From the NCBI GenBank assembly GCA_948567375.1, contig OX419756.1, forward strand, positions 45,584,333 through 45,648,332: 64,000 nt of DNA, read 5' to 3'. How positions within the stretch are numbered: position 1 is the stretch's first letter; every line of letters starts with the position of its first letter. The notes below the pieces were generated by a model. That model had not been told where the DNA came from and ran no database searches. It saw only the letters and a program-made list of their open reading frames with translations. The DNA comes from Lunularia cruciata. Taxonomy: Eukaryota; Streptophyta; Marchantiopsida; Lunulariales; Lunulariaceae. Below are positions 19,051 to 42,130 of the stretch, piece by piece. The position numbers were made by a program, and so were the translations under genes.

Positions 19051-19104
19051 AGCAAGCTTGGTGCTGAGTATCTAGAAGAGTGCTTGCCAAAACTTCCTGG
19101 TAAA

Positions 19105-19404
19105 TCAAGGATCACGGTTAGAGATGAGTACACATGGCATCCCATGATGCTTGAAGACATTGTCGAAGTAGATTTGCGCTAAGGTTGGAGCATCCACGGT
19201 ATCATAGGTTGGTGCCAAGTGGATTTGCTTAGTAAGCTTATCCACAAACACCATGATTGCGGTGTGTCCTTGTTTTGTCTTTGGCAAGGATGTGATGAGA
19301 TCCAAGCTCACATGCTCCCAACAAGCCGATGGAATGGCGAGTGGTTGAAGGAGTCCACTCGGCTTCTGGTTACTGGCCTTGTTACATTGGCAGCTCTCAC
19401 ACAA
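19105..19404 (-). pseudogene. E1 integrase core (catalytic Asp lost)
   Basis: This frame carries the end of the HHCC zinc domain (CESCQCNK) and the first catalytic Asp (SLDLITSLP). Then come the family segments VFVDKLTKQIHLAPT and HGMPCVLISNRDP. The second catalytic Asp, normally in SDRDP, is Asn. The N-terminal zinc half continues upstream to about 19640 in another frame. An active integrase would insert the cDNA into chromatin; this copy lacks two of three acidic residues. Confidence 0.85.
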
Positions 19405-19987
19405 TCTGACAAATTCTCAAACATCTTGTGTCATGTTGGGCCACTACTATTGACGTTGGAGGGTATCCAAGGTCTTGTCCACACCCATGTGACCAGCGAT
19501 GGGTAAATCACAGGCTTCTTGAAGACGCACAAGTCGAAGATCACCTTTGGCTGGAACATAGATCCAGCCCGCATGGAATAGAAGTCCTTCCTTGAAGGAG
19601 AAGGTGTTGTACTCCTTGTCACTTGTTTTTTGACGACCATGTACCATTTGGGAAGAAGGAATCTTGTTGTAGAGCTAACCGAAACTTGTTATGGATCTTG
19701 GGGTCAATTGACACCATCGTAATTGCTGCCGCGATGAGAGGAAGGGACTTCAAATTAGGTCATCGTGATAGAGCATCAGAGATGACATGGAACCGACCTG
19801 ATTTGTATTCAAGTTTGATGTCGAACAATTGAAGTTGCTCTTCCTATCAATGATGTTGACTCTTCATGTACTCCAAGTGTAAGGTTTGCAACAATGGCTT
19901 GTGATCAGTTTGCATGATCACTTGTTTCCCCAAGAGATAATGCCTCCATACCTTGGTGGCATATACCATTGCAAGTTGTTCCCGATC

Positions 19988-20299
19988 TCAAGCAGAGTAA
20001 TTTCTTTCAGCTGTATTTAGTTGGCAAGACACAAAGGCAATGGGATGTAGTCCATCCGGAAATTCTTGTTGCAACACAGCTCCAATTGCAAAGTTAGAAG
20101 CATCAAAATCAACCACACAAGGTATTTGAGGATCATATGGTTGAAGAATGGGTCTTGAAGACACCATATGTTTCAACTTCTGGAATGCTTCTTCATGTTT
20201 GGTGTTCCACTGGAAGCTCAAGTTCTTTCCCAAGAGGTCAGTCAATGGTGCAGCCACATGAACATAATAGTGGATGAACCGCTGGTAAAAATAGGCCAA
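19988..20299 (-). pseudogene. E1 RNase H
   Basis: It starts with the RT-RNase H linker (AYFYQRFIHYYVHVAAPLTD) and contains VDFDASNFAIGAVLQQ, the first catalytic Asp region of Ty3 RNase H, then IAFVSCQLN and AERNYSA. A single in-frame TGA in the linker (about 20310) separates it from RT. The remaining RNase H sequence runs on towards 19700 with stops. Confidence 0.85.
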
Positions 20300-20311
20300 T
20301 CCATTGAATGC

Positions 20312-21097
20312 TCATACTTCTGTAGCATCCTTTGGGATAGGCCAATCAGTAATGGCCTTGATCTTCTCTTCCTCTATCTTGATCCCCTCTAATGAGATCT
20401 TATGACCCAAGAAGGTAATCTCCTTCTGCCAAAAAGCACACTTTGACTTCTTGGAGTAAAATTTCCATTGTCGTAGTCGTCTTAAGACTTCTTGCACATG
20501 ATTCAAGTGTTCTGGCTCTGTCTTGCTATAGATGAAGATATCATCCAAGAACACCACCACTGACCAATCCAATAGTCCATCCAACACCCAATGCATCTGA
20601 TCCATGAAGACTACTGGAGCATTAGTGAGTCCGAAAGGTTGAACTCTCCACTCAAAATGTCCATACCTTGTGTGAAAGGCAGTCTTTTGCACATCTTCTC
20701 TATCAATCGGAATTTGCCAATAGCCGCTACGAAGATCCAACTTGGAAAAGTAACATGCTCCACTTAGTTGATCAAGTAAGTCATCGATCCGAGGCAAGGG
20801 ATATGCATTCTTCACGGTTTGCTTATTGAGCACACGATAATCAATATAGAAATGAAGTCCTCCATCCTTCTTTGGAACAAATAGTACCGGTGCTCCCCAA
20901 GAAGAGGTACTATGTTGTATGAAATCCTTCTCCAACAACTCTATAAGTGTTGTTTGCAACTCCTCCAACTCCTTTGGTGAGAGCCGATAGATTGGTCTAC
21001 TCACTGGGGTACTCCCTAGCAATAACTCAATCTTGAAGGGCATACCTTGGTCGGGGGAGTAATCCCTTTGGCAGATCATCCGAAAACACATCTGCAA
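20312..21097 (-). pseudogene. E1 reverse transcriptase
   Basis: A 261-codon open stretch covers nearly the whole RT domain: RPIYRLSPKELEELQ, WGAPVLFVPKKDGG, DYRVLNKQTVKNAYPLPRIDDLLDQL, YFSKLDLRSGYWQI, FEWRVQPFGLTNAP and VVVFLDDIFIYS (FLDD codons at 20540-20551). The thumb and linker follow to 20312. Catalytic residues appear intact. It is broken only at its ends: an upstream stop near 21100 and the TGA before RNase H. Confidence 0.9.
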
Positions 21098-21484
21098 ACT
21101 CCTAAACTATCCGATCAACCATCGCTTGATGCGGCACTTGGCCCTCCTCAGATTGTTCTTGTGCAATCGGCTTGATCCACACCGTGAATATAGACTTATC
21201 TTCCTCCAAAGCTTGCTCTATGGTTGCCTTCCTGGCAAACTTCCCATCCTGGGACTCATCTCCCTTCCAGATTTTCTCTATGGCTACCTTCTCAACAAAC
21301 TTCCCATCTTGGGACTAACTATTCTTAGGTGTCTTACTCAGAGGTGCCAGACAACCTAATTGGAAATTCCTACCTTGGTGTTGTACTTGAATTTGGCATC
21401 GGGTCCAATCAAATTAAACCTTATGATATTCAAGCCAAGGTAGACCCTGAATGATATCATAGTGTAGAGGTGCCACTACAAACC

Positions 21485-21751
21485 TCATACACTCCAAATA
21501 CTCCTTCCCAATCTTGAAGGTAATAGGATGCAAAGTGCGGAATGTAGAACCCTTTCTCTATCCGCCATCATCAAACTACTTCCAATCATTGGCTTGATAG
21601 GAATACCCAATTCCTTTGCTACTTGCATAGACATGCAATTCTCTGAACTTCTAGAATCAACCAAAATCCTACAACCCCTATTAGATATCATACCTTGCAA
21701 GTGAAGCAGACTTGCATAGGTCGAGCCTTCAATCCCATTGGAACTAATCAA
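21485..21751 (-). pseudogene. E1 aspartic protease with DSR instead of DSG
   Basis: The active-site segment reads ILVDSRSSENCMS; the flanking LGIPI and LMMADRE segments fit a Ty3 retropepsin. The essential Gly of D-S/T-G is Arg, a GGA-to-AGA type change. The E2 copy has the same DSR, whereas E4 keeps the Gly but has Phe before it (DFG). Confidence 0.8.
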
Positions 21752-21777
21752 GCTCCCAATAGGCGGCTCGAAATCTC

Positions 21778-22197
21778 CTACTGGGATTCCTCGTTTCCCT
21801 GATCATTCCGCTCCACAACCTCCACTTGGGCAACTTGTTGAGGTCGTCCATTCTTAAGTGGACATTCAACAATGCGATGCCCCAACTGGCAACAATAAAA
21901 ACAATCACCATTTTGTCGTAGTTTCTCCCAGTCTGCCATGCCTAGTGGTCTTTGTTGAATTGCATCAATCTCCATTGGTGATGGCTCCTCCAATTGTGTG
22001 TAGTGTATTGGCAGGCTTTGTGGGGGTCGAGGTCGAGACCAAGTTGTTGCCACCAAGGAATCAAAATGTTTGGCCAACCACATGGCTTCCTCCAAGTGTT
22101 GTGGCTCTTGCATGGTTACCTCTATTTTGGTTCTTGCCTTCAAGCCCCTCATGAATTGATCCAGAGCTTCACCTTCCAAAATATCTGGAATTTGCAT
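21778..22197 (-). pseudogene. E1 gag C-terminal part with CCHC zinc knuckle
   Basis: A 139-codon frame with gag-type segments (EALDQFMRGLK, TWSRPRPPQSLP) and CFYCCQLGHRIVEC, an intact CX2CX4HX4C knuckle at 21862-21903. Knuckles bind the element RNA. The N-terminal gag part runs on to about 22700 in other frames (for example 22398-22700), so gag is frameshifted. Confidence 0.85.
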
Positions 22198-22941
22198 GAT
22201 GGTGTTTTGGAACTACGTGATGTAACTTCTTACAGAGCCAATCTGTTTCAACTCTGCCAACTTATCCTGTGCAGCTCGTGTGGCATTTATAGCTTGGAAC
22301 CGACTGATTATTGCACTCTTGAATTCTGCCCATGTCAAGATCAGTGCAACCATCTATTGTTTGGCTCGCTCCACTCAAAATCTCCACCATAGCTTTGCTA
22401 CTCCATCCAATTGGCTAGAAGCCAAGAGAATCTGTTTTTGCTCATCTTGTAGATTGGTAGCTTCAAAATAACGTTCACAATCAAACACAAAATTCTCCAC
22501 TGCACCCGGGAGATTCTTGCCTTCAAATACCTTGGGTTTAGGGAATCTGATCCAATCTTCTCCTTCTCAAATTGGTACTCTCTCCACTTGCTCTTGTCGT
22601 CGAAGATCTCGTTCATCCAACAATCGAGTAAGGTGCTCGATTTGTTGTTGCATAGCAAGGATAACATCAGGTATTGCCGCCATGGTTGCTCCTCTATCAC
22701 ACTACTCCCAATCTATCTTATTTATTAACACATAGAAATAGCACGTCCACCATTCTCTATAAGTTACAACCAGAAGCACCAAGGGTTCCTCAGATATGGT
22801 GATCATATGTAGAAAATCTTGTCCAAAGTGCAAGGTGATGAACTGTATGAAATGATGCTTGGGTAGTATATGGATGCAAAAATCCCAATGGTTTGGTGGA
22901 AGTGGATTTAGTGGTCCATAAATTCCATCCATCCCATTCCT

Positions 22942-22953
22942 GCTCTGATACCA
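22942..22953 (-). promoter_or_regulatory. Primer-binding site for initiator tRNA-Met (E1)
   Basis: The minus strand reads TGGTATCAGAGC, the complement of the 3' end of plant initiator tRNA-Met, starting one base inside the 5' LTR. This fixes the element's direction as minus. Confidence 0.93.
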
Positions 22954-22954
22954 A

Positions 22955-23366
22955 TGTAAAAGACTGAATCCGAGGAGAGAAATAGGAGAATGGATACTCA
23001 TATTGGGACACTTGAATGAGGGAAAACTCTGAATGCCTAGCATGAGCTTTGGCTTTGGTATTTATAGGTAGCATACAAGGCCCTTGAGAAGCTTCTCAAG
23101 AAGCTTCCTCAAGCCGCTTTCTTAGAGTGCAAGCCAAGTTAACTAGGAAGCTTCTCAAGAAGCTTCCTTCTAGAAGCCGCCTACTTGGCGTGCAAGCTAA
23201 GCTAGTTGGAAGCTTCTAGAAGCTACTTACTTAAGGTGCAAGCTAAGTTAACCGGGAAGCTTCCCAAGAAGCTTCCTAGATACTTCCGGAATATTCTAGG
23301 CTACTTTGTCTTATGTGCTACTTTCTAAGCCCGACTAACTTCATCGCTAAACTCCATATTATTACA
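22955..23366 (-). repeat. E1 5' LTR (LTR-B), 412 bp
   Basis: It starts TGTAAAAGACTG and ends TATTATTACA on the plus strand. It has a single GAAGCTTCTAGAAGC unit near 23209-23223 where the 3' LTR has two extra 14-bp repeats. This copy should hold the active promoter. Confidence 0.93.
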
Positions 23367-23371
23367 TCTTA

Positions 23372-24746
23372 GGTCCTAGTAAAGGAGGAGATTGACTCTA
23401 AGTTAGAGTTTGAGATAGGATCTGATATAATTGAGAGTGCATTTTGTGTGTTTGCACCGTCATTGTGGGACATGGACAAGATTTATGGAGCCTCCAAAGG
23501 CCCCAAGTGTTACTATGGTACAATGGGTACCATTGAGTTGGATAACTTCATCTAGGATTTTGATAGTTGGTGTGATCTATAGTAGATGCAAAACCCAACT
23601 TTGTTCATACCCTTCATGGCATGGAAGGCGTCAGCACTTGGAGGGTCTAATGATGGATGATTACCATAAATTAAAGAGAGCTTGCTTGGAGGAGGTTGAG
23701 CTATGGAGATAATATTGGTCTCCAAACTATCTCTCCATCACGTGAAGCTCAATTTCTATGGGTAGATCAACAATACCCACAAATTCTAGCTCTAGTATTG
23801 TTGGTGGATCTCTTAGAGATGGTGCTACTACGATTGGAGGTACTACTACATGAGGTGGTGTAGTACCAGGGTTTAATCCCATGCTGTAGTTTTTATAATG
23901 TTTGAGGCAAAACTACCAAGGAGTGCAAACTGACAAGTTAAAGAGCTTACAAGAGTTCCAATAGAAGGCTAGAGAGAGCCTACAAGAGGCATACACTCAC
24001 ATGAGATGGCTGATCAATTTTACTTAGTGAGTTATTGAGGCCTAGGCAGTCTAGTTTTGGTATGGGATACTTGATAGGGAGTTGCAATGTAGAGTTTGTG
24101 ATATTATGTTGTTATAGGCTACTTTGCCTACTTTGGCAGTGGTCTTTGGTTTGGTTGAGCCTATTGAGCTCAACATGGTGGAGGAAAGAGTGGTGACATT
24201 TGAAATTTGGTAAGGAGACCTCATCCATTGTTTTTACTTCTTTCAAAGTGCAGCAGAGTGCACCACGCCATGTTGGTTTTTGAGGACAAGAGGGCCAACC
24301 CAAATCCTATGGAGCGAGTGGAGGGTCTAGTATAACTAGACCCTTACCTTCATTTTTGGGTCAACAATAAACAATGAGTGATGGTGTTGTTTGTTGGACT
24401 TGTGGTGGACCATATCATAGAAGAGAGTGCACTTAGGGCAATAGACTTGATACCTTTGGTGCATCACAACCAACACAAAGATAGTGTGAGCATTGCCATA
24501 GAATTGTTCACACTAGTGACCGATGCTTTGACCTACACCTAGAGTTACGGAGTGGTAGGGCTACTATGGCAGGTGGTATAGGAGCTCCAGGTCTTGGAGG
24601 ACAAGGTGGGAGAGGAGCCATACCTAGTAGGGGTGCAATACCTACCTTTACTTTTGATACAACCATGGCTACTCAAATTGAGCAGTTGGAGAAAAGATTG
24701 GCTAGCATGGTCCTATCTTAAAGGAGATCAGATTTAGGTGCTGAGG
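23372..24746 (+). pseudogene. E3 gag with two CCHC zinc knuckles
   Basis: Two CX2CX4HX4C knuckles are visible in one frame: CWTCGGPYHRREC (24392-24430) and CEHCHRIVHTSDRC (24485-24526). They are followed by a Gly-rich tail (GAPGLGGQGGRGA) and a possible coiled segment (QIEQLEKRLASM). Upstream gag sequence has stops. Double-knuckle gag differs from the single knuckle of the E1 family, which supports a different Ty3 lineage. The LTR-A at 24747 interrupts it. Confidence 0.75.
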
Positions 24747-25642
24747 TGTAATATTGTGAGGATAATAGGGAAACACATATGCACAAACACAAGTTTCACA
24801 CTCAAACTCTGATGCCCCAAAGGAGCACCTTCTCTTTATTATATAGACAAAGAGGATCTCATCCAAGGAAGCTCCACCATAGGATTAGGCACATAGATAA
24901 GTGACATGTCAGAAAGCTTCACCCTTGGATTACTTACTTCAATGGGTGACATGTTGATCCTGGTCCTATCTGGTTGGTCAAACAAGCTTTGATTGGAGAG
25001 AATCTTTTAGGGAATTTTCTTGTAAGAATCTCAAAATCATGTGGATGAGGTACCATTGGAAAGCTCTCAAAAAGACAAAGCAAAGAGGAGGGAATGCTAA
25101 CTTTCTCTTTGTTGGGAAGGAATCAACATATTTGAGGTCTAATTCATCCGTTTAGGCCTCCAAAATTGCCTTCAAAGATTTCAAGCATATTTCAATTACT
25201 ACTCTATTAGTAGAAGTTCCCTTTTGGTGATACCTCCTTTTGATCTATTGAGTCCATCATGTGTAACATCCATCTAGATGTTACCAAACCAATTCTCACC
25301 TTTAAATCATATGTCTAGCTATTGGTTCTAAGGTTTTCAAGTCTATTTTGGTTTTTCCCTATTAGTAGTAGTACTCTTTTGGTGATACCTCCTTTTGATC
25401 TATTGAGTCCATCATGTGTAACATACTTCCAAATGTTACCAAACCAATTCTCACCTTTAAATCATATGTCTAGCTATTGGTTCTAAGGTTTTCAAGTCTA
25501 TTTTGGTTTTTCCCTATTAGTAGTAGTACTCTTTTGGTGATACTTCTATCTGATCTATTTTAATCATCATTTATAAAATCATTCCAAATGTTACCAAACC
25601 TAAGTTCACATCTAGATCATCTAGCTAGCTCTTGGCATTACA
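24747..25642 (-). repeat. Solo LTR-A with internal 155-bp duplication
   Basis: It starts TGTAATATTGTGAGG and ends TTGGCATTACA, and is flanked by a perfect TGAGG duplication (24742-24746 and 25643-25647). At 896 bp it is longer than its relatives. A 155-bp segment starting CTTTTGGTGATACC at about 25221 is repeated at 25376. Confidence 0.88.
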
Positions 25643-25647
25643 TGAGG

Positions 25648-26223
25648 CTTCCACCTCATATGTTGATGATAGAGACATCTTGGATTTCATGTGTGGAGCA
25701 ACGCAAGTAGATGTATCTATTGCAATGACTTAGAGTGCAGTACATGCTTTAGAGCCTAGTGGAGCATCAATGGAGTTGGACCTACAAAGAAGAGAGGTTG
25801 GTAGACAGGTCAGACTTCCCCAATCTTTTACACTCAAGCATTATAGATGACATCCACGGCTTTTAAACATCCTAGTGCAAGTGTGGTAGGTGGTGATGGG
25901 GTGCATGATGAACTATCTGCTAGTCAGCTACTTGCTACTACATAAATTGAGTGAGCACAATGTTGGAGGCGGCTAAGTTGATTATACACTTTCCATATTC
26001 TTAGCCAATGACATGTGTACATTGGGAGTTGATCAAACACCAATGTTTTGGTTGGCTACTATGCCGTGTGACAATAAGGATGATGTGGTTCCTTTTACTA
26101 TAGTAGAGGTGGTTGAGATTGGATTTGAATTGGTTGATGAGCATGAGATCCGCTCAATGACAAGTGGTTTATGGCAAGCAACAACAACTAGATTGGAGGA
26201 GTTACTAGCTAGATTGGCCTTTG
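25648..26223 (+). pseudogene. E3 gag-pol junction fragment
   Basis: A 71-codon open stretch (26013-26228) reads GVDQTPMFWLATMPCD...VVPFTIVEVVEIG. I do not recognise a catalytic motif. By position, between the zinc knuckles and the protease-like segment at 29992-30617, it is probably the gag-protease region of E3. E2 inserted at its right end. Confidence 0.4.
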
Positions 26224-26621
26224 TGTAACAATATGGAGTTTAGTGACAAAGTTAGTAGGGCTAATGAAGTAGAAAATAAGACAAATTAGCCTAAAATATT
26301 CCAAAAGCATCTAGGGTGCTTCTTGGGAAGCTTCACGGCTAGCTTAGCCTACACCTCAAGTAAGTAGCTTCTAGAAGGTTCCAACTAGCTTAGCTTGCAT
26401 GCCAAGTAAGCAACTTCTATAAGGAAGCTTCTTGAGAAGCTTCCCAATTAACTTGGCTTGCACTCCAAGAAAGTGGCTCAAGGAAGCTTCTCAAGAGCCT
26501 TGTATGATCCCTATAAATACAAGAGCCGAACTCATGCTAGGCATTTGGAGTTTCACTCATTCAAGTATCCCAATGTGAGTTTCTATTCTCTTATTTCTCT
26601 CCTTGGTCTTTGATTTTTACA
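26224..26621 (+). repeat. E2 5' LTR (LTR-B), 398 bp
   Basis: It runs TGTAACAATATGGAG...TGATTTTTACA. TATA box TATAAATA is at 26512-26519, and an HSE-like TTCTAGAAGGTTC at 26369-26381. A degenerate primer-binding site (TGAATCAAAGC in place of TGGTATCAGAGC) follows at about 26623. Confidence 0.9.
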
Positions 26622-26999
26622 TTTGAATCAAAGCAGAAATAGGATGGAAAGAATTTATGGACCACCAAATCCACTTCCACCAAACCATTGGGATTTTCAT
26701 GTCCAGATATTACCCAAGCATTGTTTCACCTAATTCATCACCTTGTGTTTTGGGTAGAATTTTTCTATATATGATCACCTTGTCTATGGAACCCTTGATA
26801 CTTCTGGTTGTAACTTATGGAGAACGATGGACGTGCTACATCTACGTGTTAATCAATTAGGTAAATTGAGAGTAATGGGATAGAGTAGTAGCTATGGCAG
26901 CAATGCCAAATGTTATCCTTATGATGCAGCAACAAATCAAGCACCTTACTTGATTGTTGGATGAACAAGAGCAACAATGACAAGAACATATAGAGAGCA

Positions 27000-27748
27000 C
27001 CAGTTTGAGATGGAGAAGATCACATCCTATTTCCAAAACCCAAGGTATTTGAAGGCAATAATCTTCAAGGTACAGTGGAGAATTTTGTGTTTGACTGCAA
27101 ACTTTACTTTGAAACCACCAATCTTCAAGATGAACAAAAATAGACTCTCTTGGCTTCTAGCCAATTGGATGGTGTGGCAAACTTTAGTGGTGATTCCGAG
27201 TAGAACAAGCTGAACGACAAATTGTTGCACTAATTTTGACATAGGCAGAATTCAAGGATACAATACTTGGTCAATTTCAAACTGTAAATGTCACCTGAGC
27301 TACATGAGATAAACTGGCAGAGTTGAAGCAAATTGGCTCTATAAGGAGCCACATCACATAATTTCAGAATATCATCATGCAAATTCTAAATGTACAAGAG
27401 GGTGAAGTTTTGGATCAATTTGTGCAAGGATTGAACGCACAAACCAAATTGGATGTGACCATGCGGGACCCACAAAATATAGAAGAAGCCATGCAATTGG
27501 CTGAGCGCTTTGATTCCTTGGTTGTCACAACTTGGTCTCCACCTCGACCTACACAAAGCCTACTAGTACATTACGCACGGATGGAGGAACTGGCACCAAT
27601 AGAGATTGATGCTTTCCAACAAAGACCACTTGGTACAATAGATAGAAAAAGATTGCAACAAAATAGAGGTTGTTTTTATTGTTGCCAAGTTGAACATTGT
27701 ATTGTTGAATGCACACTCACAAATGGGCGACCTCAACAAGTTGTCTAG
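27000..27748 (+). pseudogene. E2 gag with CCHC knuckle
   Basis: Gag segments similar to E1 (VLDQFVQGLNAQTKLDVTM, FDSLVVTTWSPPRP) and an intact-spacing knuckle CFYCCQVEHCIVEC at 27671-27712. The 5' half (26977-27213) is in another frame. Confidence 0.85.
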
Positions 27749-27814
27749 ATGGAGTTTGTGGAATAGAAAGATTAGAGTAATGAGGAATCCCAATAGAAGA
27801 TTTTGAGCCACCTA

Positions 27815-27960
27815 TTGGGAGCTTGATTAGTTCCAATGGTATTGAAGGCTTGACCTATGAAAATTTGCTTCACTTCAAGGTATGATATCTAATTGGGGTT
27901 GTAGGATCTTGGTTGATTCTAGAAGTTAAGAGAATTGTATGTTTATGCAAGTAATAATGA
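27815..27960 (+). pseudogene. E2 protease remnant (DSR, stop)
   Basis: It reads GCRILVDSRS, then TAA, then ENCMFM. This is the same DSR substitution seen in E1, plus a stop two codons after it. Confidence 0.75.
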
Positions 27961-28167
27961 TGGTATCATAATTTTAGAATATCATCAAGCAAGTTTGCCA
28001 AGAAGACAACCATGGAGCAAGCTTCAAAGAGAGATGAGTCCCTAGATGGGAAGTTTGTTAGTGAAGCAGCCATAGAGCAAGCTTTTGAGGAAGATAGATC
28101 TATTTTTGTGGTGTGGATCAAGCCGATTGCACAAGGACAATATGAGGAGAGCCAAGAGCCTCATCAA

Positions 28168-28800
28168 GCAAGGGTTGGATTGGTACATGGTGGTGTTCTT
28201 GGATGATATCTTAATCTTTAGCAAGATAGAGGCAAAGCACATGAATCACGTGCAAGAAGTCCTTAGACAAGTACGACAATGGAAATTTTACAACAAGAAG
28301 TGCAAGTGTACCTTTTGGCAAAAGGAAGTTACCTTCTTGGGTCACAAGATCTCATCAAAGGAGACAAGATGGAAAAGGAGAAAATCAAGGCCATTATTGA
28401 TTGGCCTACTCCAAAGAACGATATAGAAGTATGGGCATTTAATAGATTGGCCCAGTTTTATTGACGGTTCATTCCTTATTATGCTCATGTGGTTGCACCA
28501 TTGATTGACCTCTTGGGGAAGAACTTGAGCTTCCAATGGACCACCAAGCACAAAGAAGCATTCCAGAAGTTGAAACATATGGTGTCTTCATGACCCATCC
28601 TTCAACCGTATGATCCTCAACTACCCTATGTGGTTGATTTTGATGCTTCTAACTTTGCAATTAGAGCCGTGCTGCAACAAGAATTCCCAGATGGACTACA
28701 TCCCATTGCCTTTGTGTCTCACCAACTAAATCTATCTGAAAGAAATTACTTTGCTCAAGACCAAGAATAACTTGCAATGGTATATGCTACCAAGGTATGG
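28168..28800 (+). pseudogene. E2 reverse transcriptase (C-terminal half) and RNase H
   Basis: The RT fragment begins LDWYMVVFLDDILIFSK and continues through FYNKKCKCTFWQKEVTFLGHKIS. The RNase H part (about 28490-28750) includes VDFDASNFAI and FVSHQLN. The RT fingers and first palm motifs are deleted, so no activity is possible. Confidence 0.85.
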
Positions 28801-29129
28801 GGACATTATCTCTTGGGAGAAACAAGTGATCATGCAAACTGATCATAAACCATTGTTGTAGACCTTACACTTAATACACATGAAGAGTCAACATCATTGA
28901 TGGGAGGGACAACTCCAATTGTTTGACATCAAACTTGAGTACAAACCAAGTTAGTTCCATGTCATCCCTAATGCTCTATCACGGTGACCTGATTTGAGGT
29001 CTCTTCCTTTCATCACAATAGCAATCACAAAGGTGTCAATTAACTCCGAAGTCCAAAACAAGTGTCGGTCAACTCTACAACAAGACCCCTTCTTTCAAAT
29101 GGTACATGGTTGTTTTACAACATGTGACA

Positions 29130-29745
29130 AGGAGTACAACCCTTCTCCTTCAAGGAAGACCTTCTATTCATGAGGACCAGATCTATGTTCTAGGCAAAGG
29201 TGATCTCTGACTTGTATGCCTTGAAGAAGCCCATGATTTACTAATAGTTGGGCATATGGGTGTGGACAAGACCTTGGGTACCCTCCAACAACAATGGTAG
29301 TGGCCCAACATGACACAAGATGTTTCAAAGTTTGTATGATCATGTGAGAGCTGCCAACATAACAAAGCCAGCAACCAGAAGCCAAGTAAACTCCTTCAAC
29401 CAATCCCCATTTCATCCACTCAATAGGAACACGTGAGCTTGGATCTCATCACATCCTTACCCCAGACAAAGTAAAGACATACAACAATCGTGGTGTTTGT
29501 GGATAAGCTCAATAAGAAAATCCACTTGGTACTAACCTTTGATACCATGGATGCTCCAATTTTAGCATGAATCTACTTTGACAATGTCTTCAAGCATCAT
29601 GGGATGCTACGTGTACTCATCTTTGATTGTGATCCTTGATTCACCAAGAAGTTTTGGCAAACACTCTTCCAAATACTCAGCACCAAGCTTGCTTTGTCCA
29701 TGGCCTATCATCGTCAAACTGATGGACAAACCAAACATACAAATA
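29130..29745 (+). pseudogene. E2 integrase (5' two thirds)
   Basis: HHCC zinc-domain and core segments match E1 piece by piece (CESCQHNKASNQKPS, VFVDKLNKKIHL, FDTMDAP, FKHHGMLRVLIFD) with stops and frame changes. The frame ends where integrase is fused to interior LTR sequence near 29740. Confidence 0.8.
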
Positions 29746-29986
29746 AGCAACACCAAGTAAACAACTTCTAGAAGGAAGCTTCTTGAGAAGCTATTTAATT
29801 AACTTGGTTTGCACTCCAAGAAACCGGCTCAAGGAAGCTTCTTGAGAAGCTTTTCAAGAGCCTTGTATGATCCTTATAAATAGAAGAGCCGAAACTCATG
29901 CTAGGCATTCAGAGTTTTCACTCATTCAAGTATCTCAATGTGAGCTTCCATTCTCCTATTTCTCTCCTTGGTCTTGGACTTTTACA
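29745..29986 (+). repeat. E2 3' LTR-B fragment
   Basis: It starts mid-LTR (CACCAAGTAAACAACTTC) and ends TTGGACTTTTACA. It keeps a TTCTAGAAGGAAGC HSE-like unit near 29767 and the CTTATAAATAG TATA region. Confidence 0.85.
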
Positions 29987-29991
29987 CTATG

Positions 29992-30617
29992 AGTGAGTGC
30001 AGTTCACACCTAGAGTTGTCCTATTGGATAACTATAGGCAGATTTCTTGTTTGATAGGATCTTTTAGGAAGGTTTATACCTCATAGAAGGTCTTACTAGA
30101 CTTTAGTGTATGGCCTTTTATGTTGGGAAAGGCTACAATAATTGGTTTGGAGTTATGGAAGACCAATGTGGAGAGGTGTCCATTTTAGATCTAGACATCT
30201 CTATGGGTGGTTCTACAAAATAAATCACATGCAAAAAGCTTGTTATTCAGATTTAGCCCAATCATCCTATAGATAGCTCTATGGTGAGAGCTCAAGCCAT
30301 TATGATACTAATTGAGTCATATAATGTGTTAGTTGGGGAAGCATTGTTATAGTTCATGGGCTTCAATATTGACTATTGGGAGGAAACAACCTCCTATAGA
30401 CCAGGTTGGCAGTCAAATGAGGTATGAGTATGTCACCTACCAATATGCTTTAGTAGTCGTAGTCTTGGCTCACTATAGTCCAAGACCATGGCAACATACG
30501 TTTCAACTTTTAGTGGTTTTGTAACTTGGCCTAATGACTTATTGGAGGAGAATGCCCATGTAGAGGATACTCCAATACCAAAAGAGATCACTCGGATTTG
30601 GAGTACAAGTAGGATTG
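29992..30617 (+). pseudogene. E3 protease-region fragment
   Basis: One frame gives ESYNVLVGEALL followed by FMGFNIDYWEETTSYRPGWQ, with one stop. It resembles the end of Ty3 protease domains, where a DVILG-type Gly motif precedes a conserved Asp/Trp-rich segment. I cannot place the catalytic Asp with confidence; it may lie in the decayed sequence before E2. Confidence 0.45.
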
Positions 30618-30622
30618 TTCTA

Positions 30623-31363
30623 TGTAATACTCCAAGGACAAGAGAAGAGAGAAAACACAGATTGCACACTCAAACATTTGATGCCCCAAGGGAGCACCTT
30701 CTCTTTATTATATAGACAAAGAGGATCTCATCCAAGGAAGCTCCACCATAGGATTAGGGACACAGATAGGTGACATGTCAGCAAGCTCCACCCTTGGATT
30801 ACTTACTTGGATGGGTGACCTGTCTGGTCTAGGTCCTATTTGGTTGGTCAAACAAGCTTTGACTGGAGGGAATCTTTTAGGGAATCTTCTTGTAGGAACC
30901 TCAGAATCACATGAGTAAGGTACCGTTGGAAAGCTCTCAATGAGACAAACCAAGGGGAGGGAAGGCCAGCCTTTCCTCTATTGGGGGGGGGGGAATCTAC
31001 ACATTTTTGAGGCCTAATTCATCCGTTTAGGCCTCCAAAATTGCCTTCAAAGATTTCAGGCATATTTCGGTTCCTACTCTATTAGTAGAAGTCCCCTTTT
31101 GGTGATACCTCTTTCTGATCTGTTTAGTCCATGATGTGTAACATCCTTCTAGATGTTACCAAACCAATTCTCACCTTTAAATCATATGTCTAGCTATTGG
31201 TTCTAAGGTTCTCAAGTCTATTTCGGTTTTTGCCCTATTAGTAGAAGTACTCTTTTGGTGATACTTCTATCTGATCTATTTTGACCATCATGTATAACAT
31301 TATTCTAGATGTTACCAAACCGAATTTCACATCTAGATCATATGGCTAACCCTTGGTATTACA
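30623..31363 (-). repeat. Solo LTR-A with perfect target-site duplication
   Basis: It starts TGTAATACTCC and ends TTGGTATTACA, and is flanked by TTCTA on both sides (30618-30622 and 31364-31368). It is 741 bp, with an 11-G run at 30983-30993. It split the E3 open region just upstream of the methyltransferase. Confidence 0.92.
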
Positions 31364-31413
31364 TTCTATCCACCTCCAATTTGCCATTGTGGCATTTAGA
31401 GGATGCATTGTAG

Positions 31414-32512
31414 CAAAATGTACATCAGTTGGTGCAACAAGCTTGGAGTGGAGCCTTTGTACCACCAAGAGACCAGTGTGAGGCTGAGCCTCTAAAGTCA
31501 ATTACCTTGACACCTTTGGAAACCACCCTCATTGCTTGGCAATATCTAGTAGAGGAAGTATGTCTATTGGAGTTGTTTGGTGGGATTAGCACTATATTAG
31601 CCATGGTACCACAAGCGGGTTTACAAGTACAGAGGTACTTGTATGTGGAGAGAGATGCGACTGCTAGGTGAGTCTTTCCACATCATGTGGCACACTTGGC
31701 CTATCTGTATTCCACTTTATTATTGATATCAATAGTCAAGAGTTACCAAAAGACCCTACCAGTAGACATTACCTTGTTGGGGAGCGTAGGATTTGGAGAG
31801 ATATGGTCCCATTTGGTGATGTCAAGATAGCCAATTTGGGACATACACGTGTTGGTTGAGATTTGGGTCTTTAGGATCCCAATTCATGCATATTTTGGAA
31901 GATGTTATCAATACTATGGCATCTTTAGGTTCATTAGTCCATCTCTTTAGCTTACATTTTGGAGAACATCCCTTTGATGGGTGATTCTTCCACCCGAGTG
32001 GTGGTAAGAACACATCAGGTCCATTCTTGGATGAGACTTGCTATTTTGTAAGATGCAACCAAAGGGCTCATCATCTTTGTCTTTGGTGGATGAACCTCTT
32101 ATCTAGAGAGGTTCTACAATGTGCTTATGATAGGATTAAGTAACTTGACCACCTTACTATTGATGAGATCTTGGATGTTGGGCGTTAGTCTCAAATGGTG
32201 GGAGTGGCTGATAGGTCACATATGGGAGTGGTGAACCTAGTTGGGCAGCCTCAAGCTACTTTCCTCACACTTATGAGTTTCCCAAGCTCTCATGCTTTTC
32301 AAGAGAGAGATCCTAGGCTTGTTTGGGACTCACAATTGTAGCAATTGGTGGAGCTCAATGCTAATAAGAGAGAGCGGGCATTGGGTTTTTGCATTGGTAT
32401 AACCATTGTTCTAGTAGTGTTAGAGGTATCCAAGCATTAGGTGTTAGGTTAGGCTATGGACTTGAACTATTTAACATGGATTGTGAGCCTTGGTTTGGTA
32501 GAGCAAGATAAG
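31414..32512 (+). pseudogene. C5-cytosine DNA methyltransferase domain inside the E3 retrotransposon
   Basis: C5 DNA methyltransferase motifs appear in order on the plus strand. Motif I is LLELFGGIS...QAGLQVQRYLYVE (about 31564-31650, the S-adenosylmethionine site). The motif IV region follows VDITLL and reads IANLGHTRVG (31821-31855), where the family expects IAGxPCQGHxR, so the catalytic Pro-Cys dipeptide is gone. Motif VI is AYILENIPLMGDS (31950-31985, ENV-type Glu-Asn intact). The motif VIII region is RAHHLCLWWMNLL (about 32063). The C-terminal motif IX/X region has VVNLVGQPQA, RERALGF and VLG-stop-AMDLN (32441-32467). The 31429-31671 part is an open frame; later parts have stops and two frame changes. 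It lies between the protease region and RT of one Ty3 polyprotein. The family methylates cytosine in DNA; this copy is dead. The domain call rests on motif order, not a database search. Confidence 0.82.
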
Positions 32513-32949
32513 ATGCGCTTGATATGCATCACTACTCGGATACTATGAGCTCTGTGCCTATCGAGACAATTAGGCACATGTTAGGAGTGATGGACCAAGT
32601 GGATAAGGTATTCTTAGGATACAACCAGTGGATACTAGGGAAGGTGGTCTACTTGGAGTCCATCTAGATGAGCATGGTCTACTTGGATTACACCTTTGGT
32701 CTACTTGGGATGATGTTAGAGGACGTATGGAGCTTGCCACCATATCAAAAGGGAGTTTTTCACACTGAGATTGGGACCTTTAGTGGTTGGGAGCATGAAA
32801 CTTCTGCTCCCAAGGGCCCAATGTAGCAGCCAATCAATATAGGAACATGGAGACAAAATTGATTTAGAGCCAAAGTAGTGACCTTTTTGAGGTTGGTTTG
32901 GTGGAGATTTCACATGGAGAGTATGCATCAACTACAATGATGTCAACGA

Positions 32950-33480
32950 AGAAGGATATGCATGGAAACTACACAAATAGGTGGATGTGTGGAGATTACC
33001 ATCCTATCAACCAACAGACTAGGGCTGATTGATATGCCATACCTACACCAAAGGAGATCTTTGATGCAATTGGATATGCAAAGGTCTTCAATACTTTGGA
33101 TCTTTGAGCATGATATCATCAATTGCTGATCAAAGAGGAGGATAAGTCCCAAACAACATTTTGGACTATTGATCCTCACAAAAAGGATGTGTTGTATGAA
33201 TGGAGGTTCTTAGAATTTGGGTTAAAGAACACTCCTACCAAGTTCCAAATGGTCATGGATAGGATCCTAGTTGGATTAGATTTTGCTCGATGATATATTG
33301 ATGACATTTTGGTCTATAACACTAGTATGGAGGAGCATGAGAGACATCTGTTGGAGATGTTTGAGAGGTTGAGATCTCATAGACTCAAATTACATCTTGG
33401 GAAGTGAAGGTTCTTCCACAAGCAAGTTGAGTATTTGGGTCACATTATCTACCCTAGAGGACTTGGTGTTTAGTAGACCA
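32950..33480 (+). pseudogene. E3 reverse transcriptase
   Basis: Decayed but readable in one main frame: CGDYHPINQQT, YAIPTPKEIFDAI, FNTLDL, WRFLEFGLKNTPTKFQMVMDRIL and YIDDILVYNTSMEEHERHL, with the YIDD codons at 33294-33305. Several in-frame stops are present. The sequence is clearly different from the E1-family RT (YIDD, not FLDD). Confidence 0.85.
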
Positions 33481-34130
33481 AGGTGGAGGCTATTGCATGT
33501 ATTCCTTGGCTTATAGATGTGAGCGGAGAATGAGCATTCCTTGTGTTGGTAAACTTCTATCACCACCATGTTAGAGGATTTAGTGCCATTGCCAAGGCCT
33601 TGATGAAGTTGACCAAGCTTACATAGGAGTAGTTTTGTGGAGATGAGCAGGAGAGAGCTTTGTAGAGCTCAAGGAGAAGTTGACATTTGGTCCTAATTTT
33701 GAGGAGACCAATCAAAGGACGGTCATTTTAGGTTCACACTAATTGGAGTATGTTGGGGCTTGGAGTAGTGCTCACCCATCATGATGATGAGCAGAAGGAG
33801 TTTGTGGTGGCCTATGTTAGTCACTCCAACAATTCAACAGAAGCAAAGTATAGTTCACATGAGGGAAAATGCTTGGCAAAAATTTGGGCAATAGCATATT
33901 TTTATGTTATCTATTTGATAACCCTTTCACTCTCATCATTGATCATCAGCCATTGAAATGGTTGATGGAGTTTGATAAGCTTTAAGGGAAGCTTGCATGG
34001 TAGGCTCTGATTTTAAAGGAGTATGATTTCATGGTTATTCATAGACCTGGAGTGGTGAACCATGATGTAGATGGTTGAGTAGAAACCCATGTCCCAACCT
34101 ATAAGATTAGACCAAAGCATGTGGGCATGG
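33480..34130 (+). pseudogene. E3 RNase H
   Basis: The frame at 33750-33956 reads GLGVVLTHHDDEQKEFVVAYVSHSNN...KYSSHEGKCLAKIWAI, the Ty3 RNase H core with its catalytic Glu region (EGKCLA). Stops flank it on both sides. Confidence 0.8.
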
Positions 34131-34439
34131 TGAGACAAATGAGGAGATTATGCCAGGTTGGCATGCATTTGCACTTTTATGTATATTTTTATATATATGA
34201 GGCTATGGTGGTATCGCTCTCAGCACATACATGAGGAGTTATTGAGGTCATAGATCCAAAGAGTAAAGATAGTGGTACAATTTAGTGAGACATTCATGAT
34301 GATGTCTTAGTGATGGATTATGTTTGCATTGGTGTTGTTGGTGGCATAGTTGGGGCCAAGGAGAGAGACATGTCATTTAACAAGCTAGGCGGTTTAGATT
34401 GGAGAGAAGATAACTTTGGCATGTATGGGAGGATGGTAG

Positions 34440-35700
34440 AGTGTGAGTAGTACCACTTCCATCTAACAGACCACAATTGGTCTATCATGCTCATGAGGAG
34501 CTAGGACATTTTGGAGTAAAACATACATATAGCTTACTCCAAAGTCATTATTGGTAGTGAGGTTTGCAAACTGATGTACAACAATTTTTGCCATATGTGT
34601 GGTTTGTGACCAAGTTAGAGCTGTAACACCCATTTGTGCATGTGTGTGGTATTGTGATATTTAGCTTGGTATTACAAGTACTTGAGAGATATTATTTATA
34701 GAAAGATAAATGATGGTTCTACATTAGTCATGATTAGCTAAAGTTAATCATAATTATGATAGAGTGGACCTTACTCTAGAGGAAATGGAAAAGATGAGCA
34801 CCACTATTTTGGATTCTAGTGTGTTGACTTGGTATTATTCCTAGGTGTTTGGCTTTGAGGAAAGAGTTGAGAACTCTTGGGCCCGTAAGCCTTTTTTTTG
34901 GATTCTTCTATAGTCCAAGGATAGCCCATGTGAAGGAATCCTTGACTTAGTGGTTGGGTCAAGATAAAATCACATGCTAGTGGAATATGCCCATGTGAAT
35001 AGATATTCCTTTTTACTTTTTGACTTTACTTGACTTTTAGTCTAGTAACTTTAGTTACTACGGTAATTAGTAACTTTGGTACGTAAATATTTCACAAGTA
35101 TATAAACAAGGTGTGAGGAGGTACTCATCATCCTTTCATTTCCAACTATCTCTCTCATTGAGTTCTCTAGTAAGCAATGTCTTGAGTCTTGGAGTGTTAG
35201 CCTTGGAGAAGTATGATGGAGTTGGGGTTCCTTGCCTTCTTAGTCCATGGTGTGCTACCATAATAGCCATCAGAGATTCATCTTGAGTGAGAGACAGGCC
35301 GGCTCATAGAGCATCATTCAATGCTCCTATGCTAGAATTACACCCATTACCTATCATGGGGTTGAGTTACCATTGGAGTTTGGACTTCACTAGACCTTTA
35401 TCATTGATACGAGACATCATTGGTATGTTTTGGTGATGGTGGAGCACTTCTCCATGTGGATTGAGTTGGTGGCACTTCATGACAAGTCCAATGAAGGGAC
35501 AACTTACTCATTCTTGCATTAAGTTCTTAGTCATTTTGGTGCGCCAACTGAGGTTTTGACTGATCAAGGTATAAAGTTCTTGGAGGAGTTTTAGGTCTTG
35601 TTTGATAAGGCTTTGATTGATCATCGTAACTTGTAGCCATTTGTTGAGATGTTATTGTAGTGTTGTACTTGGATGATCTAGATGTATGGATAAGTGCATG
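34440..35700 (+). pseudogene. E3 integrase, split by an LTR-C insertion
   Basis: The HHCC zinc domain shows HEELGHFGVKHTY (about 34483-34530) and CVVCDQV (about 34590-34610). After the insertion at 34635-35342 the core resumes as HPLPIMGLSYHWSLDFTRPL (about 35343-35400), with the first catalytic Asp, and continues to VLTDQGIKFLEEF (about 35553-35592), with the second. I could not find the third acidic residue; the sequence after ALIDHR is badly decayed. Confidence 0.75.
34635..35342 (+). repeat. LTR-C, probable solo LTR inside E3 integrase
   Basis: About 710 bp that interrupts integrase coding, starting TGTGCATGTGTG and ending GAATTACA. It is flanked by a direct repeat of ACACCCATT (34626-34634 and 35340-35348) that includes the target duplication. 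It has a TATA-like TATATAAAC (about 35098-35107) and a pyrimidine-rich stretch after it. It is unrelated to LTR-A or LTR-B. The exact ends are uncertain by a few bases. Confidence 0.65.
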
Positions 35701-36199
35701 TTCTCAATGGGCAGAGACCTTTTAGAGAATGATGTTGGTGGCCTTTGAGAACTTGGCAATTGCTCAGCATAGGGATACCTTACATTATGCTACCATTCAA
35801 GGAGGAGGCTATGGACCATTGATCCGTTGATTTCATCCATATGACTATGTATATCTATAGCAAAGAGCACTGATGACACTTGATGTTTCTACAAGCCGCA
35901 CAATCTTGAGAGTGCACAAGGTTTTGCCATTTGGAGTCCTTTTTTTAGAAGCACATGATGGTGTTATTTGGAATGATCATGTGCGCAATTGTGTGCCATG
36001 CCACTTCCCAGACATTGATGGTACTATGGACCCAAGCTTGGCACTTGTACGTGTAGGCTTGTGGTGTATGTTATGCGGTTCTTTTGGTGGAGTTGCTACT
36101 ATGTTAGTGTGTGATAGCTATTTGAGAGGATGGCATATGGCATGTATGACTCCTCACTTTGTGGTGGTTCTTCAAGGATAGTGGTTGTGTCTTAAATAT
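35700..36199 (+). pseudogene. E3 integrase C-terminus with a PHD-type zinc finger
   Basis: A segment LAIAQHRDTLHYA (about 35752) leads into a 102-codon open frame (35873-36181) with SRTILRVHKVLPFGVLFLE and WNDHVRNCVPCHFPDIDGT. A PHD-like C4HC3 array follows: CMLC (36065-36076), CDSY (36110-36121), GWHMAC (36128-36145) and, after one stop, WLCLKY (36182-36199). Two of the zinc Cys positions are Tyr, each a single G-to-A change from Cys. PHD fingers read histone H3 tails. Here it occupies the place that the chromodomain has in E1. A different treble-clef zinc finger is possible, but the CDxC...GWHxxC...WxCxxC spacing is typical of PHD. Confidence 0.72.
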
Positions 36200-36357
36200 A
36201 CTTTACCTATAGCTAGTTCATCCTTTATATGGTATAGATTGCAGACAGGTGACTAACAATGAGACTAAATAGCACCCAACCTCCTGATCTTTTACCCACC
36301 ATAGGGTATACCATATACTTGGAGTAGATGGCTATCTAGAGTTAGAGAGACCTAACC

Positions 36358-36375
36358 GCCAACTAGGGAGGTGAT
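36358..36375 (+). promoter_or_regulatory. Candidate polypurine tract of E3
   Basis: AACTAGGGAGGTGAT lies immediately before TGTGGTATTTGAG, which I take as the start of the 3' LTR. It would prime plus-strand DNA synthesis. Confidence 0.45.
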
Positions 36376-36931
36376 TGTGGTATTTGAGAGTTCATGTATG
36401 ACTTATGTGTGAGTTGTGCTTCTATAGCATGTGATGTTGATAGCAATGTATGTTGTTTAACAAGGTATATATGCATGATAACTATTACACCATTTGTAAT
36501 GTCACACCTAGATTGCACAGACTCTGGAGTATCAATGCTGGTAGTCAAGAGTATTTTGGTAGTTACTCATATACTACTTGTTGACGATTGGGTTCATGTT
36601 CAAGGTACTTACTACATGGTGAAGCCCATTATCACTTGCACTATTTGCACCGTTGGGTGTGCCATCAGCAAGATAGTTGGGGTTTGAGACCTAGTTCAAG
36701 TCTAGGGAGTATGCTTTTGAAGTGCAGCTCTAGAGAGCTCACTTCTTTGATGTTAAGCTTTCAAGTTCCTAACTATGGTGCACAGAGTCCGGTATGCATC
36801 ACTTGGATTCTCTTAGCTAGAATGGGTGTGGCTTGACTATAATTAGTGCACAATTGTTGGCAAATTATTGAATGATAGATCAAGTACTGATCTAATTGAT
36901 TGTGATTCTAGTTGTGTGAACAAACTAGTTA
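36376..36931 (+). repeat. E3 3' LTR
   Basis: The part 36495-36926 matches the 5' LTR remnant at 16171-16603. The start is set at TGTGG (36376) after the purine tract, and the end by where a second copy of the start begins (36932). The unit is 556 bp. Confidence 0.55.
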
Positions 36932-37047
36932 TTATGGCACTTGAGAGTCTGTGTAAATGACTTATGTATGAGTTTTGCTTCTATAGTGTGTGATGTTGAT
37001 AGTGATGTATGTTGTGTAGCAATGTATATACACACACACTTGTAACA
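36932..37047 (+). repeat. Partial tandem copy of the E3 LTR start
   Basis: TATGGCACTTGAGAG...GACTTATGTATGAG...GTGTGATGTTGATAG repeats the 36376-36490 sequence at about 85% by eye. It suggests a tandem-LTR remnant or a local duplication. Confidence 0.6.
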
Positions 37048-40779: not shown

Positions 40780-41530
40780 TCAGATGTGTTTTGGATGATC
40801 TACCAAAGAGATTACACTCTTATCATAATATGCACTTCAAGATTGAATTATTGCAAGTAAGTATTACTATGAATGGACCAATCTATTGTCTCTCACCAAA
40901 GGAGTTCGAAGAGCTTTGAACAACATTTACGGAGTTGTTTGAAAAAGATTTTGTATGATATAGTATATATCCTTGTGGAAAACCAATAATTTTTGTCCCA
41001 AAGAAGAATAAGAGATTTTGCTTTTTATTGATTATTGTAGCATCAATAAATAAATAGTGAAAAATGCATATCTCATGCCTTAAATTGATGATTTCCTAGA
41101 TCAACTAAGTGGAGAACAATACTTCTCCAAGTTGGAACTCCAAAGCGGCTATTGGTAGATTCTCATTGATAAGAAGGATGTGCAAAAGACTATCTTTTGC
41201 ACAAGGTATAGGCATTTTTAATGGAGAGTTCTACCACTTGGGCTCACTAATGCTCCAACAATCTTCATAAATTAGATGCATCGGGTGTTGGATGGGCTAT
41301 TGGATTAATATGTGGTGGTGTTCTTGGATGATATTTTAATGTATAGCAAGGTGGAAGTAGAACACATGAATCAAGTGCTAGAAGTCCTAAGAAGATCACC
41401 AATGGAAGTTTTACTACAAGAAGTTAAAGTGTGCCTTTTGGGAAAATGAAGTAACCTTCTTGGGTAAGGTCTCATCAAAGAAGATCAAGATAGAAGAGAA
41501 GAAAATCAAGGCCATTACTAGTTGGCCTAC
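40780..41530 (+). pseudogene. E4 reverse transcriptase
   Basis: Fragments in several frames include LSPKEFEEL, YFSKLELQSGYW, VLPLGLTNAPTIF and VVVFLDDILMYSKVEVEHMNQV (FLDD codons 41331-41342), then thumb sequence. Multiple stops. Confidence 0.85.
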
Positions 41531-41559
41531 TCCAAAATATGCCATAGTAGTGTGAGCAT

Positions 41560-42130
41560 TTAATGAATTGGTAAGTTTTTACCAATGGTTCATCTACTAT
41601 TATGCTCATGTGGCCGCACCATTGACCAATCTCTTAGAAAAGACCTCAAACTTTTAGTGGACCACCAAGTAGAAAGAATCATTCTAGAAGCTGAAACATA
41701 TGGTGTCTTCAAGACCCATTCTTCAACCATATGATCCTCAACTACCTTGTGTGATCAATTTTGATGCTTCTAACTTTGCCATTGGAGTTGTGTTGTAGCA
41801 TGAACTTCTTGATGGATTAGATGCCATTGCCTTTGTATCTTCCCGACTAAACATTATAGAAATGAATAACTTTGTTTGAGATTGAGAACAACTAGCAGTG
41901 GTATATGCCACCAAGTTATGAAGACATTATCTCTTGAGGAATCAAGTGATCATGCAAACCAATATCAAACCCTCATTGCAAATATTACATTTAGAGCACA
42001 TGAAGAGTCAATATCATTAATGGGAGGAACAACTATAGTTATTTGATATCAAAGTTGAGTATATACCCAATAGTTACCATATCATACCCAATGCCCTATC
42101 ACAATGATGTGATTTGAATACTCCTCCTCT
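41560..42130 (+). pseudogene. E4 RNase H
   Basis: The linker segment and INFDASNFAIGVVL (about 41757-41798) are readable. Many stops follow to about 42130. Confidence 0.75.

Follow-up and report, generated by a model that had tools for sequence, protein, structure and literature searches.

Does a retrotransposon of the liverwort Lunularia cruciata carry a DNA methyltransferase of its own and, if so, what might it gain from the enzyme? The question is raised by a 64,000-nucleotide stretch of the Lunularia genome (assembly GCA_948567375.1, contig OX419756.1, positions 45,584,333 to 45,648,332), referred to here in its whole length as the window. A prediction made from its letters alone had placed motifs I, VI, VIII and IX/X of C5 DNA methyltransferases between the protease region and the reverse transcriptase (RT) of a Ty3/Gypsy element, on the same strand. 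The window does contain, at 31480-32515 on the + strand, a broken C5-cytosine methyltransferase (MTase), which matches the MTase of an intact copy elsewhere in the genome (L010) with a tblastn E value of 1.9e-115. The segment almost certainly belongs to a Ty3/Gypsy-type family, represented here by a dead copy with other sequences nested in it, in which a first open reading frame (ORF1) encoding gag, protease and MTase is separated by an in-frame TAG from a second (ORF2) encoding RT, RNase H, integrase and a PHD finger.

A decayed methyltransferase within a Ty3/Gypsy polyprotein

The MTase of L010 matches the + strand of the window in three successive blocks (31480-31785, 31839-32063 and 32048-32515) at 67-71% amino acid identity (tblastn), and all the predicted motifs lie within these blocks. 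Protease sequence directly precedes them (29988-30619 and 31363-31482) and RT follows (32835-33662), all on the + strand; nucleotide identity to L010 over 31364-32839 is 80.8%. Probing with the reading frames of intact copies recovered, in this sequence, gag, protease, MTase, RT, RNase H/integrase and the C-terminal tail on the + strand from 23463 to 36202. Including its terminal repeats the element spans 16159-37039, and intact copies measure about 9.6 kb. The gaps in its alignment (17773-23366, 24746-25643, 26223-29987, 30623-31364 and 34621-35307) correspond to nested or inserted sequence, which bears out the proposal that an element of some 9 kb would emerge once such insertions were removed. 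Its parts are the following.

16159-16603, + strand: terminal repeat A1, opening the element at its 5' end (TGTC...); 79.9% identity to L012 273-706 over window 16157-16591, with the end approximate and read from the letters
16920-17773, + strand: 5' leader and start of ORF1; blastn 77% to L012 994-1832
23366-24746, + strand: gag part of ORF1, decayed; blastn 81.4%, tblastn with gag 66-76%
25643-26223, + strand: ORF1 between gag and protease; blastn 79.4%
29987-30623, + strand: retropepsin-like aspartic protease region; blastn 79.2%, tblastn with protease 63-69%, a further stretch at 31363-31482
31480-32515, + strand: DNMT3-type C5-cytosine MTase, broken, motif IV lost near 31826-31842; tblastn E 1.9e-115, family and fold taken from the intact copy
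32824-32826, + strand: TAG ending ORF1, context TAG CAG CCA; TAG CAG at the same place in 26/26 genomic copies
32833-34621, + strand: RT, RNase H and start of integrase (ORF2); blastn 86.4%, tblastn with RT 76%, Pfam assignment from intact ORF2
35307-36202, + strand: remaining part of integrase, then the C-terminal tail with its PHD finger; tblastn 68-76%, PF00628 in intact ORF2
36374-36480, + strand: terminal repeat B1, with a polypurine-like tract ahead of it; 83.8% to B2 of L012 over 36374-36478, end approximate
36483-36929, + strand: terminal repeat A2; 75.7% to A1 of L012 over 36487-36914, ends approximate
36930-37039, + strand: terminal repeat B2, closing the element at its 3' end; 88.6% to B1 of L012 over 36931-37035

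Because frame 1 of 31380-32700 contains 25 stops, the window MTase is a pseudogene, and this copy of the element is dead. Motif IV, which the original prediction did not include, has been destroyed: when the letters were compared by eye with those of intact copies, the region around 31826-31842 was found to have a stop and to lack the catalytic Cys codon. No target duplication is recognisable at the flanks of this old copy. Viewed on its own, the broken and AT-rich window copy could be taken for a chance match, or for a host gene that happens to sit within a retroelement. The strength of the tblastn match, and the recurrence of the same arrangement in other genomic copies and in other species, already refute both ideas, whose probability we regard as negligible.

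Long open frames are present in another Gypsy element, at 18145-21106 on the - strand (RT 21022-20156, integrase 19494-18853); because it lies on the opposite strand and within a gap of the MTase element, it probably jumped into the latter. RT remnants of further elements occur at 97-772 (-), 28148-28590 (+) and 41030-41711 (+). A search of a plasmid collection returned no match.

Intact copies and the type of methyltransferase

Measured from stop to stop, ORF1 comprises 1,428 codons in both L009 and L010, and up to 1,448 among the genomic copies; it encodes the gag region and the MTase, together with two CCHC-like motifs and a protease motif (DSG in L009, L012, L013 and L014). ORF2 (1,037 codons in L013) contains RT, RNase H, the H2C2 and core domains of integrase and, at its very end, a PHD finger (Pfam RVT_1, RT_RNaseH, H2C2, rve and PHD, PF00628). 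The order protease, RT, RNase H, integrase, with the protease region upstream of ORF2, is that of Ty3/Gypsy (Metaviridae-type) elements, and in the six genomic copies read the MTase lies between protease and RT; among the copies read, no intact one has the enzyme outside the element. The enzyme is thus, as had been proposed, a component of a retroelement polyprotein and not a host gene.

The Pfam results refer to intact copies (L010 ORF1 and L013 ORF2), not to the window copy. PF00145, the family anticipated by the original prediction, matched at 33.4 bits against a cut-off of 22. Judged from its sequence, the MTase of the family is of the DNMT3 type, as the intact copy displays a DNMT3 fold with motifs I-IV-VI-VIII-IX-X in linear order and conserved catalytic motifs. 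Fold, motif order and catalytic residues are those of the DNMT3 de novo methyltransferases, to which the element MTase is about 25% identical in structural alignment; it differs in being fused to gag and protease and, unlike DNMT3, no ADD or PWWP domain was detected by Pfam in ORF1 or ORF2. An unrelated Rossmann-fold family, which the original prediction had named as a result that would count against it, was rejected, the fold being that of DNMT3; the 50 fold matches listed are all C5 methyltransferases, and the comparison speaks only for families in that list. A DRM origin was also rejected: the motif order is linear over 350 aa and not rearranged, and DRM2 chains match only query residues 25-150, the motif I-IV part.

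ORF1 is ended by TAG CAG at the same place in all 26 copies compared, the next codon being CCA in 24, CTA in L014 and CCT in L024. The sequence TAG CAG CCA fits the leaky stop context of the tobacco mosaic virus type (UAG CAR YYA). The 25-base stop context has 971 matches (480 + 491; control 0) in the 565,766,749-base assembly searched, a count without a denominator of sites bearing a codon other than TAG. Three of these matches lie about 29 kb apart on one strand (G000:C1:5811800, 5840956 and 5870109), with no adjoining MTase motif among the 100 exact matches listed, and possibly represent a tandem duplication.

The position of the stop relative to the MTase can also be read from database proteins in which protease (PR) is joined to MTase. 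Of 31 such PR-MTase proteins longer than 900 aa, ten are from Marchantia, and five of the ten end 79-82 residues past the MTase; many further proteins of this class and length end 77 to 172 residues past it. The MTase is therefore usually encoded on the gag side, before the stop.

Split terminal repeats and target duplications

The 5' end of the element is formed by A1 (454 bases) and the 3' end by a polypurine-like tract followed by B1 (107 bases), GC, A2 and B2 (107 bases), with TGTC...GACA as the outer ends. Ordinary long terminal repeats (LTRs) were rejected, as there are not two identical complete LTRs but A1 at one end and B1-GC-A2-B2 at the other. The element functions in the manner of a Gypsy element, although it lacks the form of a canonical LTR element. 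The A2-B2 joint (TGATTA/TTGTGG) was the same in all nine loci found; the junction scans used fixed-length patterns, from which length variants would escape. An exact 4-bp target duplication was present in all 16 testable copies (17 of the 26 were examined), comprising all 14 that could be tested among 15 flank pairs together with L012 (CATA) and L028 (TTGC); for the L026 pair, the piece retrieved did not include the end pattern, and the other nine loci were outside the test. Target duplications of 4-6 bp together with TG...CA ends are characteristic of Ty3/Gypsy elements, and the family conforms to this. Two loci depart from the common structure: in L033, near 9846, A2 is followed by sequence normally found 3' of A1, indicating a recombinant, and L022, near 146, sits within the B2 repeat of another copy.

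The split direct repeats, A1...B1-A2-B2, are a pattern that the family shares with PAT/DIRS-like elements. The latter, however, employ a tyrosine recombinase, whereas the present family has a DDE integrase and 4-bp target duplications; indeed, no tyrosine recombinase family was detected by Pfam in L010 ORF1 or L013 ORF2, the rve integrase being found instead. Split repeats combined with 4-bp target duplications mean that the DIRS-like repeat form does not require a tyrosine recombinase.

A large and recently active family

A 25-base stretch across intact motif IV has 3,389 matches in the genome with up to two mismatches (1,695 + 1,694; control 0), and the B1-GC-A2 junction has 1,637 (801 + 836; control 0). 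Were each of the 3,389 a full-length element, together they would account for about 6% of the genome, a figure calculated and not measured. In a protein search, 116 MTase matches were scored of 13,882 first-look candidates, and all 116, some with internal stops, are 97-100% identical to L010 over the MTase; the further genomic copies that the prediction called for are therefore present. Because A1 and A2 differ at few positions in the five copies in which both can be read (6, 9, 3 and 15 of 449 positions, and 10 of 454), the family has jumped recently, by a measure for which no clock is calibrated in this plant. According to a 2023 paper, Ty3/Gypsy bursts explain most of the larger genome of Lunularia cruciata (PMC9985172), and the MTase-bearing family may be part of that burst.

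Relatives, precedents and the origin of the enzyme

Three database searches (105 hits; 196 hits, with 120 listed; and 100 hits) provided the relatives described here, and statements about species apply to the matches listed. The nearest named relatives are from liverworts (Marchantia polymorpha, M. paleacea, Riccia sorocarpa and Calypogeia fissa), in keeping with the earlier impression of a land-plant genome. Others are from the mosses Sphagnum fallax, S. troendelagicum and S. tenellum and from the algae Chlamydomonas eustigma, Monoraphidium neglectum, Haematococcus lacustris, Cymbomonas tetramitiformis and, by its label Chrzof1, Chromochloris. The remainder mostly lack a species name and are largely metagenome proteins; neither a vascular plant nor Klebsormidium nitens is named. 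Sorting of 299 proteins, three of them our own translations and many incomplete, yielded 101 with MTase alone, 89 with RT-RNaseH-MTase-integrase-PHD, 47 with PR-MTase and a remainder in smaller classes. The element thus exists in two arrangements, PR-MTase-RT and RNaseH-MTase-integrase, which the RT tree separates cleanly and the MTase tree nearly so.

In the RT tree (63 rows, thinned from 108 usable segments plus two: 53 of one order, nine of the other and one outgroup) the split by order has a support of 98. In the MTase tree (72 of 196 usable segments) the algal-order group lies on one side of a branch with support 70, and the PR-MTase group is one clade except for P0103. A second MTase tree of 52 rows included 11 bacterial and phage DNMT3-like outgroups (L059, of 12 such loci, was left out); here the element MTases form one clade (SH-aLRT 100), the PR-MTase group has a support of 85 and one algal-order row, P0290, falls outside its group. 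The outgroups are thin, consisting of one DNMT3A piece, one or two host exons that fill one third of the columns and the 11 bacterial and phage sequences, with MET1 and CMT not included.

It could be argued that DNMT3-like enzymes were captured twice, once in the algal arrangement and once in the bryophyte-type arrangement, given that the MTase occupies two places and that the arrangements divide the RT tree and, a few stragglers aside, the MTase tree. The element MTases, however, form a single clade apart from the DNMT3A piece, the host exon and the 11 bacterial and phage relatives, and a C-terminal PHD finger occurs in both arrangements, so that two captures seem unlikely; from these trees, one capture followed by one relocation would be the simplest reading. 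The original prediction had left open whether a land-plant copy would extend the known distribution or mark a distinct capture. The distribution does extend to land plants, but a recent separate capture there is disfavoured, as the element MTases of liverworts, Sphagnum and algae group in a single clade, albeit against few outgroups.

The Sphagnum MTases (P0130, P0155, P0211 and P0025) fall among those of liverworts, at forks with supports of 83/93 and 86/89, neither of them starred; over 76% of the query, P0130 shares 71% identity with L010, as compared with 74% for Marchantia P0001. Because the Sphagnum sequences are placed in this manner and the identity of P0130 is near that of P0001, horizontal transfer between mosses and liverworts is a lead. 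Several individual sequences deserve mention. P0112 (label Chrzof1, 598 aa) and P0169 (Cymbomonas, 462 aa) are MTases of the family in which no retroelement domains were detected, and are either fragments or host-adopted genes. P0292 (Haematococcus) has a second PHD finger on the N-terminal side of the polyprotein, and P0282, labelled as coming from a Minisyncoccia metagenome-assembled genome, is a member of the family and probably a contaminant of that genome. The phage and bacterial (mostly Bacteroidota) DNMT3-type MTases L050-L061 have a similar motif VIII and 23-32% identity.

A precedent exists in KnitGypsy-Dnmt3 of the charophyte Klebsormidium nitens (de Mendoza et al. 2018, PMC5890265); the comparison follows the published description. 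Both families have the Gypsy domain set, a Dnmt3-type MTase in the polyprotein, no introns, conserved catalytic residues, purifying selection on the MTase and DIRS-like repeats, the K. nitens element being described as having repeats of DIRS-element structure but Gypsy domains. KnitGypsy-Dnmt3, however, is known from one charophyte alga in fewer copies than the Symbiodinium elements, whereas the present family occurs in bryophytes and in thousands of copies. Further differences, in a comparison that does not extend to domain order, are the position of the MTase before an in-frame stop, the PHD finger and 4-bp target duplications fitting a DDE integrase. SymbioDIRS-Dnmt3 and SymbioLINE-Dnmt of dinoflagellates are likewise retrotransposons with captured DNA methyltransferases, but belong to other classes and are unrelated as elements (PMC5890265). 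A 2025 survey cites streptophytes and dinoflagellates. No report of an MTase-bearing retrotransposon in bryophytes was found among the open-licence PMC papers listed, subscription papers and bioRxiv being outside the scope. New with respect to the 2018 precedent are the occurrence in land plants, the scale, the MTase before the stop, the two architectures and the insertion evidence.

Selection on the enzyme and decay of the copies

Across the 26 copies, changes in the MTase confined to a single copy comprised 59 nonsynonymous (N), 28 synonymous (S) and three stops, as against 13 N, 22 S and no stop among shared changes (Fisher p = 0.0023). The corresponding p values were 2e-6 for all domains pooled, 0.007 for gag-PR and 0.012 for RT to tail together. 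In this test the commonest letter of a column was taken as ancestral, and the test was confined to full-length pieces without gaps (23 to 26 of the 26 loci, depending on the domain). Because shared changes mostly arose in active lineages, the MTase has been kept by purifying selection, as have gag-PR and RT-to-tail. Shared stops occur in RT (five), integrase (four), gag (one) and tail (one), and those in RT and integrase indicate that some non-autonomous lines exist.

C-to-T and G-to-A account for 316 of 418 singleton changes, with C-to-T singletons at 9.55 per 1000 sites at CG, 9.93 at CHG and 2.23 at CHH. A comparison of L010 with the window copy gives a similar picture: a C in L010 is a T in the window copy at 77 of 173 CG, 129 of 334 CHG and 104 of 1,105 CHH sites, and the reverse (C in the window copy, T in L010) occurs at 1 CG, 4 CHG and 53 CHH sites, so that the CHH excess is small. 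Because the decay is concentrated at CG and CHG, it fits methylation of the copies by the host in these two contexts. Decay of this kind is the expected footprint of host methylation, and thus camouflage from silencing, suggested earlier as a strategy of the element, was rejected as the main reading. In plants, CHG methylation and the decay that it leaves point to host chromomethylase-type enzymes.

These data bear on two other roles for the enzyme. The MTase could act on host chromatin and not on the cDNA of the element, such that broad methylation feeds host maintenance and tunes copy number as a self-limiting brake. The CG and CHG decay would accord with this, since it indicates that the family is heavily methylated in the genome, and slower transposition is named as a possibility in the 2018 paper (PMC5890265). 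The thousands of copies, however, argue against an effective brake. Moreover, the retroelement MTases that were active in the 2018 test, among them SymbioDIRS-Dnmt3, which gave de novo CG methylation in yeast, act at CG (PMC5890265), whereas the CHG decay points to host enzymes; we consider such a brake quite improbable. The MTase might alternatively block or compete with host defence, either by protecting the cDNA from deamination or from recognition as foreign or by modifying RNA, roles that were proposed in the same paper (PMC5890265) and that would agree with the retention of the domain by selection. The strong C-to-T decay of old copies speaks against this, although that decay follows insertion, and we attach only a small probability to it.

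A possible replication cycle

The explanation that we favour, and that as a whole is very probably the best available, has three steps of differing strength. In the first, which is likely, the MTase would be made in gag-like amounts, because it lies before a leaky-type stop, and be packed with the RNA, while RT, integrase and PHD finger would be produced by readthrough only. In the second, for which the chances are about even, transcription would start in A1 and end in A2 or B2, and reverse transcription would give DNA with B-GC-A at both ends. The ends would be joined into a two-repeat circle (B-GC-A-B-GC-A), and the integrase would open the circle at one GACA-GC-TGTC palindrome with loss of GC, leaving exactly A1...B1-GC-A2-B2. 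In the third, which we put forward tentatively, the cDNA or circle might receive CG methylation from the MTase ahead of insertion; the new copy would then arrive already bearing the mark of silent self DNA, and the integrase might be steered by the PHD finger through its reading of histone H3.

It should be emphasized that several observations weigh against this explanation. Five of the ten Marchantia proteins end elsewhere (P0008 at 19 residues past the MTase, P0004 beyond it in RT and three cut within or at the MTase), and six environmental relatives run through as one frame and lack this stop (five PR-MTase-RT-RNaseH-integrase, and one more with PHD). Inspection by eye revealed no clear match to a tRNA primer site after A1, which leaves the circle step as a structural reading only. 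The counts behind the selection test are small and 20 of the 26 copies came from the upper part of the MTase-similarity ranking, which favours stop-free MTases, while the integrase taken alone is little depleted (14 N to 6 S among shared changes; 39 to 12 among single ones). The CG and CHG decay shows that carrying the MTase does not exempt old copies from methylation by the host. Finally, the K. nitens Gypsy MTase produced no methylation in yeast, a result that its authors call inconclusive (PMC5890265).

Extended to the whole group, the favoured explanation would describe a green-plant-wide lineage that took up DNMT3 once, in the chlorophyte/streptophyte ancestor or early in one of the two. 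On the way to bryophytes the lineage would have shifted the MTase out of its place between RNase H and integrase and put it last in the gag-protease ORF, and it would replicate through a two-repeat circle that the integrase opens at an internal palindrome after the MTase has marked it. The thousands of copies in Lunularia would then be part of its Gypsy burst. In this complete form the scenario is possible but rather unlikely.

Transposons are the main target of DNA methylation, and an element that carries and conserves its own MTase thus runs against expectation. What the enzyme does for the element is a matter of inference, but its occurrence in liverworts, including the laboratory model Marchantia, makes it testable what a retrotransposon gains from methylating DNA.
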